NCBI GenBank assembly: GCA_026414995.1
Contig: JAOAHY010000010.1
Coordinates: 1 to 42,591, forward strand
DNA length: 42,591 nt
Direction of reading: 5' to 3'
Origin: Caldisericia bacterium
GTDB lineage: Bacteria; Caldisericota; Caldisericia; B22-G15
Shown piece by piece: positions 18,171-42,504 of this stretch. Position numbers and translations under genes: made by a program. Under the pieces are notes generated by a model. It did no database searches, had not been told where the DNA came from, and saw nothing but the letters and a program-made list of their open reading frames with translations. Position 1 is the stretch's first letter, and each line of letters opens with the position of its first letter.

Positions 18171-18358
18171 CTTTTCCTCCTAAAAATAAAAATTAAAAAA
18201 ATCGTCAAAGAAAGAGCAAGAATTGTGATAAGAATTTTTTTTGTCTTTTTGTTTTTAACCTTTTCTTTTATGAGTCTTGAAACAATTTCTGGTGAAAGGT
18301 GAACATTTGTTTCTTTTAAAGAGAGAAGTTCTTTTCTTATTGCGTCATAATCATTCAT
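18167..18358 (-). CDS. Small single-pass membrane protein, candidate anti-sigma factor
   Basis: 63 residues: a charged N-terminal half (MNDYDAIRKELLSLKE...) and one membrane helix near 41-58, followed by RRKS. There is no His/Cys zinc motif of ZAS anti-sigma factors. The functional guess comes only from position: its start overlaps the stop of the ECF sigma gene, the usual sigma/anti-sigma arrangement, and its topology (short cytoplasmic N-terminus, single helix, almost nothing outside) would suit a membrane tether. It has too little external sequence to be a sensor by itself. Confidence 0.5.
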   Translation of the reverse strand: MNDYDAIRKELLSLKETNVHLSPEIVSRLIKEKVKNKKTKKILITILALSLTIFLIFIFRRKS

Positions 18359-34543: not shown

Positions 34544-34714
34544 TTAATCTTTTTTTATTAACTCATCTTTTAATAAATCGATTGAATTTTTAAGTTCCAT
34601 AATTGCATCTTTAAGCTTATCAATCTTTCCATTTGTTCTTAATAGTAAAAATGTTGCAACAACTATTGGAAAGCCTACTTGAGAAATAAGTTTAATTAAT
34701 AAATCTATTTCCAA
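34544..34714 (-). CDS. YvrJ family small membrane protein
   Basis: 56 residues starting with TTG at 34714, behind AAAGGAGGTGA. Sequence begins MEIDLLIKLISQVGFPIVVA, continues with TFLLLRTNGKIDKL and ends in a charged helix. The pattern VGFPIVVA-x-FLLLR followed by an amphipathic helix is that of YvrJ proteins of Bacilli and Clostridia (function unknown, holin-like size). In other genomes YvrJ is often beside DUF1659 and DUF2922 genes, which lie just upstream here behind a terminator. Confidence 0.75.
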   Translation of the reverse strand: MEIDLLIKLISQVGFPIVVATFLLLRTNGKIDKLKDAIMELKNSIDLLKDELIKKD

Positions 34715-34796
34715 AAATGTTCACCTCCTTTAAAAATTTTTATTAAAAATAATTTGTTTTAAAATATAAGTAAGAATAAAATAGTTGGAGGATAAA

Positions 34797-34976
34797 ATGA
34801 CAATTAAAAGATGCGGAGAATGTCCATGTTTAACAAAAAAGACAAAGGGTGGTCCAATTTTTTTCTATGATGTATTTTGGTGTAATAAATATGATTTAGA
34901 GAAAGACCCTAATCAAGAAGCATGTGCATATGCTAAAGACAGAAGCAGTAAAGGTTATAATTTAGATTGCAAGTAG
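34797..34976 (+). CDS. Small cysteine-rich protein, unknown function
   Basis: 59 residues with six cysteines: CGECPC near the start, then WCNKYD, EACAYAKD and a terminal LDCK. The spacing suggests a small zinc- or iron-sulphur-binding fold. Start is ATG 34797 (TTGGAGGAT upstream; a TTG at 34785 lies within that site). It is the only plus-strand gene in this part, divergent from yvrJ and convergent with DUF2922 across the big hairpin. No family recognised. Confidence 0.6.
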   Translation: MTIKRCGECPCLTKKTKGGPIFFYDVFWCNKYDLEKDPNQEACAYAKDRSSKGYNLDCK

Positions 34977-34985
34977 AATTTTACT

Positions 34986-35062
34986 AAAAAAACTCCGACC
35001 TGCCGAGACAAAGAAGCTTTTCCCTTAATTCTTTCAACCTCTTCTCGCACAGGTCAGAGTTT
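34986..35062 (-). terminator. Large multi-segment hairpin terminator of the mobile cassette
   Basis: On the minus strand a 13-bp outer stem (34990-35002 with 35050-35062, one mismatch) is followed by seven T residues, a classical intrinsic terminator. Unusually the loop is 47 bases and holds two more paired segments, CGAGA/TCTCG (35004-35008, 35043-35047) and AAAGAA/TTCTTT (35010-35015, 35029-35034), making an extended structure. It lies between the convergent DUF2922 and cysteine-rich genes. Confidence 0.75.
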
Positions 35063-35072
35063 AAATTTTATT

Positions 35073-35291
35073 CTATGGAACTAAATCTGTTCTTGTTGTT
35101 TCAACTATTCCTGCATCTACAAGAGAAGTAAGTTCACCATATCTTGTCAAAAATATATTTTGGTTTATAACCCAATTTGCAAAATTTTGAATATTTTGTT
35201 GTGTTAAATTATTTTTTGGATTACTAAATCTCATTGTGAAGGTTCTTCCTTCAGTTTCTGTTGCAAATACAATATAAACTTGTTTGTTCAA
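35073..35291 (-). CDS. DUF2922 family protein
   Basis: 72 residues from a TTG start at 35291, directed by AGGAGGTGA. YIVFATETEGRTFTMRFSNP, the middle QNIQNFANWVI and the end GELTSLVDAGIVETTRTDLV fit the small DUF2922 family. Function unknown. Families DUF1659 and DUF2922 are usually adjacent, as here, and distantly similar to each other (beta strands, then a helix with NFxxWV, then a closing strand). Confidence 0.75.
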   Translation of the reverse strand: MNKQVYIVFATETEGRTFTMRFSNPKNNLTQQNIQNFANWVINQNIFLTRYGELTSLVDAGIVETTRTDLVP

Positions 35292-35354
35292 TAATAATCA
35301 CCTCCTCTCTTTTTTATTTATTAAGTTTTAATTTAATTTTTTAAAAACTTAAAA

Positions 35355-35549
35355 TTATCCATACTGCTTCCTTATCATTCTGTAAGAAGTGAATATTGGG
35401 TCATTAACTAAATTTGCAACCTGCTGGACAAAACCTTCAATTTGTGTATCTGTTGCTGTAGGTTTTATGAAATTTTGGGTCTCACTTCTTGTGTTTCCTT
35501 CTGTTCCAAATACAATTCTTATTGAGTGTCTTTCATCTACTACTGGCAT
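35355..35549 (-). CDS. DUF1659 family protein
   Basis: 64 residues from ATG 35549 (MPVVDERHSIRIVFGTEG), with AAAGGAGG eight bases upstream. The TSYRMIRKQYG end and the helix DTQIEGFVQQVANLV fit DUF1659. The start lies inside the end of the holin-like gene (17-base overlap), so it is coupled to it. Function unknown. Confidence 0.7.
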   Translation of the reverse strand: MPVVDERHSIRIVFGTEGNTRSETQNFIKPTATDTQIEGFVQQVANLVNDPIFTSYRMIRKQYG

Positions 35550-35847
35550 CAAACTCACCTCCTTTCATTTTTGATTTTTCAAATAAATCTTTCCAGAAGA
35601 GGTTATATGCAATTTGAGAGATTGAAAATATTTCTAAAAGTGTATATTCAAAATTGTTTGTGTTCATAAAAAATTTACCTTGAAGATAAACTGAGAGAGT
35701 TCCTATAAGAAAAGAAAAAAGAAAAGCAATAAGAAATTTAATTTGTCTTGACCAATTTTTATTTATAAAGAATTTGACAACAATAGGCATAAATATACCT
35801 AAAAAAGAGTTGAACCATATAGGCTTTATCTCTTTAATTAACTCCAA
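35533..35847 (-). CDS. Small membrane protein, holin-like candidate
   Basis: 104 residues with three hydrophobic segments (about 9-27, 35-57 and 72-86) and a charged C-terminal tail. TTG start at 35847 with AGGAGG eight bases upstream. Size, topology and position in the same operon as an endolysin suggest a phage-type holin, but I do not recognise a specific holin family, so this rests on context. Confidence 0.5.
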   Translation of the reverse strand: MELIKEIKPIWFNSFLGIFMPIVVKFFINKNWSRQIKFLIAFLFSFLIGTLSVYLQGKFFMNTNNFEYTLLEIFSISQIAYNLFWKDLFEKSKMKGGEFDASSR

Positions 35848-36339: not shown

Positions 36340-36600
36340 TTAAAAATTTAAGAAATCTTTTAATTGGGAGATTTCTCCCAAATTTATAAAAATCACTTCC
36401 ATATCTTTGATGAAATTTATTTGAAAATCTTTTCCTTTTTTACATTGAATTAAAAGAATTCTATTGTTTGTTGTATCAATTCCTAAAATATCAATCGGTG
36501 AGTGAGAGCCTGAACTTCTTAAAACTATGTTGAATTTGTCTTTTAAAAAATTCATAACTATATATTCAAATCTTCTTCCTTTTTCATAAAACCTATTCAA
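36340..36600 (-). CDS. Hjc-like PD-(D/E)XK nuclease
   Basis: 86 residues from a TTG start. KGRRFEYIVMNFLKDKF, RSSGSHSPIDILGID and ILLIQCKKGKD match the order of Hjc-type Holliday junction resolvases: E in the first helix, SGS, PID, then (E/Q)xK. The usual glutamate of the last motif is glutamine (QCK), a variant seen in Mrr-like enzymes. It is shorter than archaeal Hjc (about 120). Likely role: resolving junctions of the element's DNA. It begins 2 bases after the endolysin stop. Confidence 0.7.
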   Translation of the reverse strand: MNRFYEKGRRFEYIVMNFLKDKFNIVLRSSGSHSPIDILGIDTTNNRILLIQCKKGKDFQINFIKDMEVIFINLGEISQLKDFLNF

Positions 36601-36601
36601 T

Positions 36602-37198
36602 TCAATTTCCGCTCCTTAAAAAATCATAGAAATTTTTTAATACTGTAAGAAATGTTCCAAAATCAACAATCTCATCAGGTGAATGAATGTTTTTTATCCA
36701 TCCAACTTTTAATGCATAATCAATTGAATTTTGTTTGTATGAATTTATATCTAAAAGGTATTTTGAAAATTTATCCCAAGGAAAATTTTTTCCAGGGCAC
36801 TTTGTTTGAACTATATCTTTATGTCTTAAAACTCTTTCTGGTGAAATTTCATATTTTTTCATTAATTCTTTTACAAGGTACGCTCCTTCATGAAGTTGAA
36901 TTGGAGTTATAATTTCTAATTCAAAATTACCAATGAATGAGATTGCTAAACTTCTTAAATTAAAATAGTCATCACCTGAATGGATACAGAAGTTATCTTC
37001 ATCTTCTCCTTTAAATATATTTCCTTTAGGACCTATACCATAGTGATATGGTGCTTTACTCCAAGGAAATTTTTCTTTATATTCTTTCTGGTGATTTTTT
37101 AAAATATTATTCCAAATTCTCTCACCTGTTGGATCTTTCTCAATATTTAATGTTCCTGTATGATGAATTATTATGTATTTCACTTCAATTAATTTCAT
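36602..37198 (-). CDS. T7-lysozyme-type N-acetylmuramoyl-L-alanine amidase (endolysin)
   Basis: 198 residues without signal peptide. The Amidase_2/PGRP domain has IIIHHTGT with zinc ligand H12 or H13, YHYGIGPKGNIFKGE, LAISFIGNFE, H126 in VLRHKDI and C134 in TKCPGKNFPW: the His-His-Cys zinc set of T7 lysozyme. About 45 extra C-terminal residues (YALKVGWIKNIHSPDEIVDF and following) may bind cell wall. Lack of a signal peptide means it needs a holin or other export route; the holin-like gene downstream would provide one. GGAGG precedes ATG 37198. Confidence 0.9.
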   Translation of the reverse strand: MKLIEVKYIIIHHTGTLNIEKDPTGERIWNNILKNHQKEYKEKFPWSKAPYHYGIGPKGNIFKGEDEDNFCIHSGDDYFNLRSLAISFIGNFELEIITPIQLHEGAYLVKELMKKYEISPERVLRHKDIVQTKCPGKNFPWDKFSKYLLDINSYKQNSIDYALKVGWIKNIHSPDEIVDFGTFLTVLKNFYDFLRSGN

Positions 37199-37225: not shown

Positions 37226-37897
37226 TTATCTTCTTGAACCTCCTTGAATAAAGATTTTAAAATTCATTGAAGACAACCTATCCATTGCTCTTGGATATTC
37301 ATCCTTTAGTTTCTTCTCTGAAAGATTTGATGTTATTATAGTTGTTAATTTAAATCTATACCTATAATCAATTAGATAATCAAAAAAACTTTTATTCCAC
37401 TCATTTTTTACTTCAACTCCAAGGTCATCAATGAGAAGAATTTTCTTGTTTAATAAACTCTCATCTTGCTCTTCAAAAATTTTATATGAGTGATTGTAAT
37501 AAAATGGATAATACTTTTTAAATAATTCTTGAATAATTAAAAAGAGAATGCTTGTTTTTCCTGAACCAACTGAACCAATTATTGTTAAACCTTTTCCATA
37601 TAAGATAAATTTTTGAATGTTATTAATATATCTTTCAATTTTCTCTCTTATACTCTCCTCAACTTTATCAAGAGATATATTTAAGAAAGTTTTTCCAAAG
37701 TTTTCTTTTAAAAAGTTTTGGTATATTAAGCAAGAGTTTTGACCATAAGAATCACAATTAAATGAAATTCCATCTATTTGAAAATCTCCATCAATACAAC
37801 TCTCACACCTTTTTGGAATTTGTGGAATTGATATTTTCTCCTTTTTATCTTGAATATCTCTTATAATTTTTTCAATTAAATTTTTAATTTCATCCAT
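37226..37897 (-). CDS. DnaC/IstB-like AAA+ helicase loader
   Basis: 223 residues. Four cysteines in the N-terminal part (C31, C34, C48, C56) look like a zinc-binding knuckle. The AAA+ core has Walker A GSVGSGKT (108-115), Walker B KILLIDDLG (152-160), TIITSNLSEK as sensor 1 and RAMDRLSSM as the arginine/sensor 2 region. Phages and plasmids use such proteins to load the host replicative helicase. It follows the initiator candidate directly. Confidence 0.88.
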   Translation of the reverse strand: MDEIKNLIEKIIRDIQDKKEKISIPQIPKRCESCIDGDFQIDGISFNCDSYGQNSCLIYQNFLKENFGKTFLNISLDKVEESIREKIERYINNIQKFILYGKGLTIIGSVGSGKTSILFLIIQELFKKYYPFYYNHSYKIFEEQDESLLNKKILLIDDLGVEVKNEWNKSFFDYLIDYRYRFKLTTIITSNLSEKKLKDEYPRAMDRLSSMNFKIFIQGGSRR

Positions 37898-37909: not shown

Positions 37910-38767
37910 CTAACATTCACCAAAAAACTCTTTTACTGCTTCTTCACCTGTAAAACCTTTGAAACTGAAAGTGATGACTTCTTCTTGAGTGTTTTCAATT
38001 AAACCACTATCTTTTTTAGAAAAGAGTTTTGGAGTTTTCTCTTTTTCTCTCCATTTGAGATTCATTCTTTTTGAAATCTCATAAAGATAAGGAATATTTG
38101 GTACTTCTCCTTTTTTCTCTTTTATTGTTTTAAGTAAAATTGCCTCAAATTGTCTTGGGGTTGAAAAAGAAAGAATACCTTTAATATATGGAAGATCTTT
38201 TTCTCTTATTTTTCCACCATATTTATAAAAGGTTTTTATAATTTCTTTTTCATATTTTGGGAGTGAGAGAGTTTCAATTTGTTGAAACTCTAAAAATTTA
38301 TTTATAAATTTTTCATTTATAATATTTTTTTCTTTTTCTTTTAGAAGTTTATAAGAAACCTTTTCTTTTTCTTTTTTAAAAAATTGTGGTGAATGTTCAC
38401 CTTTTTGAGAAAAGAGTTGAGTTGAAGAGAGTTTTGAGAGTGAACATTTATGAAGAGAATTCTCATTAGGGTTTTCTATTAAATGTTCACCTTTTTGAAA
38501 AGATGGTTGATTTAGAGAATTTTCGATTGGTGAACATTTTAAAGGTGAACATTCTAAATTAAAATCAATTATTAAAAGATTTACTTTTCCTTTCACTCCA
38601 AACTTTGTTATGTGTTTTAACTCTTCCTCTTTTTGTACTTTATAGATATTTTTCACAACAAGAGATGGAGAACATTTATATTTTCTTGAGATTTTTCTAA
38701 CATTTATATCTTTTCCTTCATAAGCAAGAATTTTTACCTCTTTTCTTATAAGTTCACTTATGCTCAT
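37910..38767 (-). CDS. Replication initiator candidate (HTH protein with internal origin-like repeats)
   Basis: 285 residues. The N-terminus (about 1-50) is a helix-turn-helix (GKDINVRKISRKYKCSPSLV). The middle (about 70-130) is a repeated low-complexity region encoded by iteron-like DNA. The C-terminal half (about 150-285; YKYGGKIREKDLPYIKGI) is helical and ends in a motif-poor tail, like DnaD-type phage replisome organisers, though I cannot assign a family with certainty. Position before a DnaC-like loader is the classical initiator-loader pair. ATG 38767 overlaps the upstream small gene. Confidence 0.65.
   Translation of the reverse strand: MSISELIRKEVKILAYEGKDINVRKISRKYKCSPSLVVKNIYKVQKEEELKHITKFGVKGKVNLLIIDFNLECSPLKCSPIENSLNQPSFQKGEHLIENPNENSLHKCSLSKLSSTQLFSQKGEHSPQFFKKEKEKVSYKLLKEKEKNIINEKFINKFLEFQQIETLSLPKYEKEIIKTFYKYGGKIREKDLPYIKGILSFSTPRQFEAILLKTIKEKKGEVPNIPYLYEISKRMNLKWREKEKTPKLFSKKDSGLIENTQEEVITFSFKGFTGEEAVKEFFGEC
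38392..38553. repeat. Iteron-like GGTGAACATT repeats inside the initiator gene
   Basis: Five copies of GGTGAACATT or its complement AATGTTCACC: 38392-38401 (complement), 38439-38448 (AGTGAACATT), 38482-38491 (complement), 38529-38538 and 38544-38553. Two imperfect 58-bp units, 90 bp apart, each have one copy at each end in opposite orientation. In the protein the two orientations give GEH and CS(P/L), so the shared feature is the DNA. Candidate replication origin. Confidence 0.6.
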
Positions 38768-38915
38768 TTTTCTTTACCTCAATTCTTTCTAAAAATTCTT
38801 TTATCTCTTCATCTTTCTTTTTTGATAGAGAAATTATTTTTCTCATAAGAAGAACTTCATCATACTCATTGAAAACTTTTGCTAAAATGAGGTATATTAA
38901 ATGAGTATCTTTCAT
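38754..38915 (-). CDS. Small charged protein, unknown function
   Basis: 53 residues, starting MKDTHLIYLILAKVFNEYDE, with AGAAGGTG upstream. Helical and highly charged; its end overlaps the initiator start. Unrecognised; its position suggests a role in replication control. Confidence 0.5.
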   Translation of the reverse strand: MKDTHLIYLILAKVFNEYDEVLLMRKIISLSKKKDEEIKEFLERIEVKKNEHK

Positions 38916-38927
38916 CACCTTCTAAAG

Positions 38928-39424: not shown

Positions 39425-39485
39425 TTATAGCATTAACTAAATATATTATAGCAAATAATATAATATTGTCAAGCATATGCTATAA
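39425..39485. promoter_or_regulatory. Operator-like TTATAGCA repeats around the cassette promoter
   Basis: TTATAGCA occurs at 39425-39432 and 39446-39453, and inverted (TGCTATAA) at 39478-39485, that is downstream of, across, and upstream of the minus-strand promoter. The palindrome AGCATATGCT (39472-39481) joins the -35 box. Three 8-base sites around one promoter look like repressor binding sites. Confidence 0.5.
39445..39472 (-). promoter_or_regulatory. Main promoter of the mobile cassette
   Basis: Minus strand TTGACA (39467-39472), 16 bases, TATAAT (39445-39450) preceded by TGC, so close to an extended -10. All minus-strand genes from 39392 down to 35073 can be read from it. Confidence 0.8.
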
Positions 39486-39566: not shown

Positions 39567-39594
39567 TTGACAACTTGAAAATATTTTTTATAAT
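39567..39594 (+). promoter_or_regulatory. Promoter of the methyltransferase operon
   Basis: TTGACA (39567-39572), 16 bases, TATAAT (39589-39594), both perfect. Together with the divergent promoter at 39445-39472 it forms a phage-switch-like layout. AAGGAGGTG follows at 39611-39619. Confidence 0.8.
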
Positions 39595-39621: not shown

Positions 39622-39738
39622 ATGACAAGTAATGAAAAGATAAAAAAATTAAGAGAAAAATTAGGTCTTTCAATGAGTGAATTAAAGAGGGAAAGTTTGA
39701 AAATGTATATGTTTTATTATTTAAGGAGAAAGAAATGA
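39622..39738 (+). CDS. 38-residue leader protein upstream of the methyltransferase
   Basis: Starts MTSNEKIKKLREKLGLSMSE and ends YYLRRKK; AAGGAGGTG upstream. The first 25 residues resemble the first two helices of an XRE/Cro HTH domain, but the protein stops before a full domain. It could be a truncated repressor or a coupling peptide. Its stop overlaps the methyltransferase start (ATGA). Confidence 0.5.
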   Translation: MTSNEKIKKLREKLGLSMSELKRESLKMYMFYYLRRKK

Positions 39739-40042
39739 CTAAAGAAGAAAAGTTTTTTAATGCTTTAAAAGATATATTTATCGGAGCAAAAATTGAAGGG
39801 GTTGGTGGATTTGTTAATTTAATGAAAATAAAAACAAAATATTATGATAATATTGAGAAAATTCTAAAAGATGATATTGAAAAAGCACTAGAAAACTATC
39901 CAACTTTCAGAGATGAACTATTTGATAAACTATATACATTTTTTAGTAGATATTTCACAGAAAGTGGTAGTGTATATTTTAATTCAACACCATTTCATAA
40001 CAATGTATATGAAAAGGTTTATACAGATGATAAAGATGTAAT
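39723..40042 (+). repeat. 320-bp direct repeat, copy 1 (methyltransferase 5' end)
   Basis: Starts at the AAGGAG ribosome site and covers the first 102 codons of the methyltransferase gene. It is identical to 42185-42504 except for one synonymous C/T change at 39782 versus 42244. Sequences differ on both sides of the repeat. Confidence 0.95.
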
Positions 40043-42156: not shown

Positions 42157-42204
42157 ATGATGAAAAGATATTTACAAGATATGAAAGGAGAAAGAAATGA
42201 CTAA
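42157..42204 (+). CDS. Possible 15-residue peptide, or truncated start of an ATPase gene
   Basis: ATGATG with GGTGGTGAT upstream encodes MMKRYLQDMKGERND and stops inside the second methyltransferase copy. MKRYLQD is how many DUF4143-type AAA+ ATPases start, so it may be the first few codons of such a gene cut off by the junction at about 42185. Weak evidence because of length. Confidence 0.3.
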   Translation: MMKRYLQDMKGERND

Positions 42205-42504
42205 AGAAGAAAAGTTTTTTAATGCTTTAAAAGATATATTTATTGGAGCAAAAATTGAAGGGGTTGGTGGATTTGTTAATTTAATGAAAATAAAAACAAA
42301 ATATTATGATAATATTGAGAAAATTCTAAAAGATGATATTGAAAAAGCACTAGAAAACTATCCAACTTTCAGAGATGAACTATTTGATAAACTATATACA
42401 TTTTTTAGTAGATATTTCACAGAAAGTGGTAGTGTATATTTTAATTCAACACCATTTCATAACAATGTATATGAAAAGGTTTATACAGATGATAAAGATG
42501 TAAT
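42185..42504 (+). repeat. 320-bp direct repeat, copy 2
   Basis: Second copy of the methyltransferase 5' end, 2462 bp after the first, one base different. At 42505 the sequence leaves the methyltransferase and continues as tyrosyl-tRNA synthetase-like coding sequence. Confidence 0.95.

Follow-up and report, generated by a model that had tools for sequence, protein, structure and literature searches.

The window analysed here, 42,591 nucleotides long, is the entire contig C10 of a 1.27-Mb assembly from a Caldisericia bacterium. Caldisericota is a little-known heat-loving bacterial lineage with, to our knowledge, almost no cultured members. The window holds a cassette in which the genes for a putative replication initiator and a helicase loader are accompanied by genes of lysis type:

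34544..35847, minus strand: holin-like ORF and DUF1659, DUF2922 and YvrJ genes, all of the same cassette (Pfam/PHROG matches)
36602..37198, minus strand: Amidase_2, endolysin-like (E 1e-19)
37226..37897, minus strand: DnaC-like helicase loader (AAA+), 223 aa (phrog_50, E 1.6e-23; phrog_3277, 3.5e-19)
37910..38767, minus strand: putative replication initiator, 285 aa, with an HTH, a linker and a helical C domain
38276..38374, no strand: AT-rich candidate unwinding tract, 24/24 codons identical to the relative in genome G001; its stability is within the lowest 1-2% of the window
38392..38400, minus strand: decamer copy in the opposite orientation, part of the near-palindrome GGTGAATGTTCACC (38388-38401), codes GEH
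38440..38448, plus strand: decamer copy with A replacing the first G, codes CSL
38482..38490, minus strand: decamer copy in the opposite orientation, codes GEH
38530..38538, plus strand: decamer copy, codes CSP
38545..38553, plus strand: decamer copy GGTGAACATT, codes CSP
38668..38676, plus strand: weaker copy GAGAACATT with one mismatch, within the HTH codons; G001 has an exact AATGTTCACC here
38754..38918, minus strand: 54-aa ORF ahead of the initiator, also present in G001 and the sister clusters
39445..39472, minus strand: consensus promoter of the early operon, TTGACA-16-TATAAT (12/12)
39567..39594, plus strand: divergent consensus promoter (12/12), serving an HTH-like short ORF
39622..39738, plus strand: 38-aa ORF weakly matching the beginning of a phage-type repressor

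The loader gene is located directly downstream of the initiator gene, and this adjacency was kept in the two related genomes, G001 and G003. A helicase loader beside the initiator gene had been claimed in a preliminary description of this DNA, and the match of the next gene to the DnaC-type phrog_50 bears this out. Both divergent promoters were found to be perfect sigma-70-type promoters upstream of the initiator operon, and TAGCAAATA-type repeats were found at 39450 and 39598, one at each promoter. The repressor-like ORF stops where a type III methylase gene starts, and insertion of that gene may have cost the cassette its repressor. A 320-bp repeat, 99.7% identical, is located at 39723-40042 and 42185-42504; the latter repeats the beginning of the DNA methylase (mod) gene, and this second copy starts immediately behind the first and is truncated by the end of the contig. 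An 86-aa ORF at 36340-36600 gave a sub-threshold match to the archaeal Holliday-junction resolvase Hjc. The att-like repeats flanking the cassette were just 13-bp low-complexity matches, and no tRNA was found.

In the AlphaFold model of the initiator, residues 1-50 form a confident three-helix HTH, followed by a disordered linker (52-139), a helical C-terminal domain (139-242) and a last helix (274-282). According to the model and the translation, the disordered linker holds all linker decamer codons. The Pfam scan gave no family for the initiator at E<1, no match to the O N-terminal domain models of the lambda O family and no RepA_N domain, and no sequence match was found in the PDB. The sole PHROG match had an E of 0.46. 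The best BFVD match of the C domain, which has no Pfam match, was to a DnaD-like replication protein and is weak (E 0.27). By sequence, the initiator is outside the lambda O and RepA_N families.

The cassette was found to be present in two genomes of the same genus, on contig C89 of G001 (JAKPCM010000007.1, a Caldisericota MAG) and on contig C215 of G003 (JAAYUH010000099.1). Sequence identity within the genus is about 60% for the initiators and about 52% for the loaders. The G003 initiator is cut off at residue 185 because the contig breaks off, so that G003 is uninformative on the linker and the comparison is between the only two complete linkers in the collections searched, those of the window and G001. 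Two G003 contigs (L050 and L007) overlap by 131 bp. The flanks differ: the neighbour of the cassette is a STAND NTPase gene in G003 and rmuC in the window. The near-complete congener G002 has no initiator and no clear loader; the module is therefore accessory. No further initiator homologues were found in IMG/VR (by protein, alignment or DNA pattern) or by tblastn in INPHARED and PLSDB, and a profile search of 386 genomes gave none beyond G001 and G003, with two marginal matches. Neither INPHARED nor IMG/VR gave a match to the loader. Distant loaders at two other loci have unrelated neighbours and added nothing to the comparison. Sister clusters consisting of the 54-aa ORF, amidase, DUF1659, DUF2922 and YvrJ genes were found in G000:C27 (L048:2131-4387) and G002:C1 (L049:9585-11841); they lack initiator and loader and are divergent from an HTH + Peptidase_S24 repressor. 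Of the 54 genomes of the phylum, 33 carry DUF2922, usually once per genome, and it is also found in Thermotoga maritima.

The preliminary description had reported five decamers within 162 bp of the initiator gene, in both orientations and inside two 58-bp units spaced 90 bp, with the opposite orientations coding for different residues. All of this was found in the window. The motif scan gave five exact GTGAACATT 9-mers at 38392-38553, and the translation reads CSP, CSP, GEH, CSL and GEH. The full GGTGAACATT is present at four of the five sites, the 38440 site having A as first letter, and the two units (38392-38449 and 38482-38539) are about 81% identical. The whole window contains seven copies of GTGAACATT compared to 0.41 expected, and no shuffle reached seven. 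The two remaining copies are isolated, at 18299 and 34716, one in a stretch free of long ORFs and the other at a ribosome-binding site. No other 9-mer in the window has at least five non-overlapping copies per 200 bp, making this its densest 9-mer cluster. In the 1.27-Mb genome, pairs of GTGAACATT at most 40 bp apart and pairs of TGTTCACC at most 30 bp apart occur only here. Host oriC DnaA boxes were rejected as an identity for the decamers; the box cluster at the dnaA site is TTTTCCACA in three congeners.

The linker of G001 was found to be a 36-bp array of nine units, five of which contain an exact TGTTCACC. Together with one copy in the HTH codons and one at 1031, the latter in another frame, this gives seven exact copies. 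The two species thus share the octamer but differ in the length and arrangement of the linker and in most of its residues. The variable columns of the G001 units fall on codon position 1 in 5/12, position 2 in 9/12 and position 3 in 6/12; position 2 being the most variable, the peptide is not conserved, and the pattern is opposite to that of a constrained protein. Cys is sometimes replaced by Ser, GEH is absent, and one site is read NVH. The TTCACCA just before the AT tract is aligned in both species and is read as SP in one and HQ in the other. It is an arm of the 38392-38400 site and aligns with the last site of G001, which lies in another frame there. Comparison with a homologous cassette had been put forward as a check in the preliminary description; conservation at the DNA level, as first proposed, was supported by it, and this same-genus homologue favours DNA-level selection on the linker repeats.

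Random synonymous recoding gave five AATGTTCAC in 16 of 5000 runs for the window and seven TGTTCACC in 0 of 5000 for G001. Some of the G001 copies stem from tandem duplication and are not independent of each other, and the test is supporting rather than independent because duplication copies codons. When any 9-mer was allowed to count, 289 of 1000 recodings of the window reached five, which is not significant because the KEKEK codons also repeat.

A second conserved element was found outside the coordinates given in the preliminary description (38392-38553). Right after the array, at residues 132-164, 24/24 codons are identical between the window and G001 compared to 14.5 expected. Synonymous sites elsewhere are saturated, with the same codon at 56% of shared residues versus 61% expected from codon usage, and the longest runs of identical codons are 7 in the loader and 8 in the amidase gene. 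The 24-codon block has a P of about 10^-6; for a run of this kind at any place within the four genes P is about 5e-5, and permutation within the gene gave 0.00085. The overlapping stretch 38300-38390 is 86% AT. An overlapping ORF was rejected for this tract, as the 41-aa frame of the window stops early in G001. Judged from sequence, the frozen tract at 38276-38374 is the best evidence for a putative origin at this locus.

In phage lambda, ori lies in the middle of the O gene, where the initiator sites (iterons) are followed by an AT-rich tract; the gene after O supplies the helicase loader, and a repressor-controlled early promoter is located upstream (PMC7466680, PMC5043065). In pSK41, the origin is central in rep and codes for a dispensable linker between an N-terminal DNA-binding domain and a helical C-terminal domain (PMC5703833). 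Features of a lambda O-type intragenic origin were found in the cassette: clustered repeats inside the initiator gene, an adjoining AT-rich tract frozen at the DNA level, and the loader gene next to it. The two divergent consensus promoters resemble those of lambda dv. The cassette differs from lambda in its motif, which is 9-10 bp and occurs in both orientations in the window and as direct repeats in G001, whereas the lambda iterons are 19-bp inverted repeats. It also differs in its loader, which is a DnaC-type AAA+ protein and not lambda P, and in an initiator without an O-family match in the Pfam scan. The loader matches the DnaC-like phage helicase loaders of phrog_50 and phrog_3277. Like pSK41 Rep, a RepA_N protein, the initiator has an N-terminal HTH, central linker codons bearing the sites and a helical C domain; unlike it, there is no RepA_N match, no partition genes were seen and a loader gene is present.

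We consider it probable that the replication origin of the cassette is located in the linker codons of the initiator gene, which would then have two functions; the preliminary description had proposed an origin within this gene, and the sequence comparison supports it. The early operon would be transcribed from the promoter at 39472, and the N-terminal HTH of the initiator would bind the GGTGAACA/TGTTCACC sites. The bound array would open the adjoining AT-rich tract, and the C-terminal domain or tail of the initiator would pass the site on to the DnaC-like loader from the neighbouring gene, and the loader would load the host replicative helicase. This route of binding, opening and loading is proposed because it is analogous to lambda and pSK41. 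Repeat cluster, DNA-level conservation, frozen tract, gene order and promoters are properties of the sequences themselves; the protein that binds the sites, the melting of the tract and the start of replication there we infer. Several observations count against an origin. The decamer spacings (15, 36, 42 and 48 bp) show no helical phasing, repeat orientation differs between the species, being mixed in the window and uniformly direct in G001, and no integrase or partition gene was seen in the cassette. A GC-skew change at the decamers, which the preliminary description had put forward as a check, was not found; skew in the window tracks gene strand and carries no origin signal.

The repeats could instead be selected in the protein, where a repetitive Cys/His linker (CSP, GEH, CSPH) would serve in structure or in metal binding. 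The five window sites and the G001 array sites are all in frame and all give Cys or His, and the CSP tripeptide is common to both species. However, the variation of the G001 units at codon position 2, the occasional Ser for Cys, the absence of GEH from G001, the NVH reading of one site and the predicted disorder of the linker all speak against this, and the synonymous freeze of the AT tract would be left unexplained. We therefore find selection on the peptide quite improbable. An operator or titration array for the initiator or another factor, with replication starting elsewhere or never, is unlikely, if somewhat less so. A regulator would also use a mixed-orientation array of a short motif, and the divergent promoters of the cassette form an operator-like region, but the array is located about 900 bp inside the operon, away from the promoter, and a frozen AT-rich tract better suits an unwinding element.

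Inverted decamers might also form mRNA hairpins controlling translation of the initiator or loader. The window mRNA is indeed more stable than its shuffles through paired decamers (z -4.1), whereas G001, with direct repeats only, has no excess folding (z -1.1), and no Rfam match was found; there is very little to recommend such an RNA element. Chance or neutral expansion of a low-complexity repeat in a free linker is scarcely more credible. Linkers expand easily and further tandem repeats are found at gene junctions in G001, but the two species share the octamer, which occurs in several reading frames and in both orientations next to a frozen tract, and the P values for the cluster, the recoding and the codon run argue against a neutral origin of the repeats.

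The intragenic arrangement has precedents in phage lambda and in certain plasmids of staphylococci; it is very probably present in this cassette too, where the initiator is unrelated to theirs and unclassified. A replication origin in these linker codons suggests that initiators with no sequence relationship to lambda O or RepA_N can also come to contain an origin, and that a synonymous-site comparison of just two species can locate one. It would provide a defined origin together with the initiator and loader that belong to it, a useful seed for a replicating vector. It is conceivable, though rather doubtful, that a lysis-type cluster (amidase, DUF1659, DUF2922, YvrJ), resident across Caldisericota and lacking replication genes at its other sites, acquired or retained an initiator, a loader and an intragenic origin in this genome. 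The cassette would then be a chromosomal island re-replicating locally or a mini-replicon, controlled by a phage-type repressor and without virion genes.

Tandem repeats were also found in G001 at L006:274-459 and L006:2292-2463 (62 bp x3 and 35 bp x5), where they duplicate the ribosome-binding site and start codon before the initiator and amidase genes. In G052, a distant member of the phylum, the gene upstream of a DnaC-like loader (L013:2067-3173) carries a tandem SSLNP repeat in its middle and is, from its sequence, a candidate for another intragenic origin.
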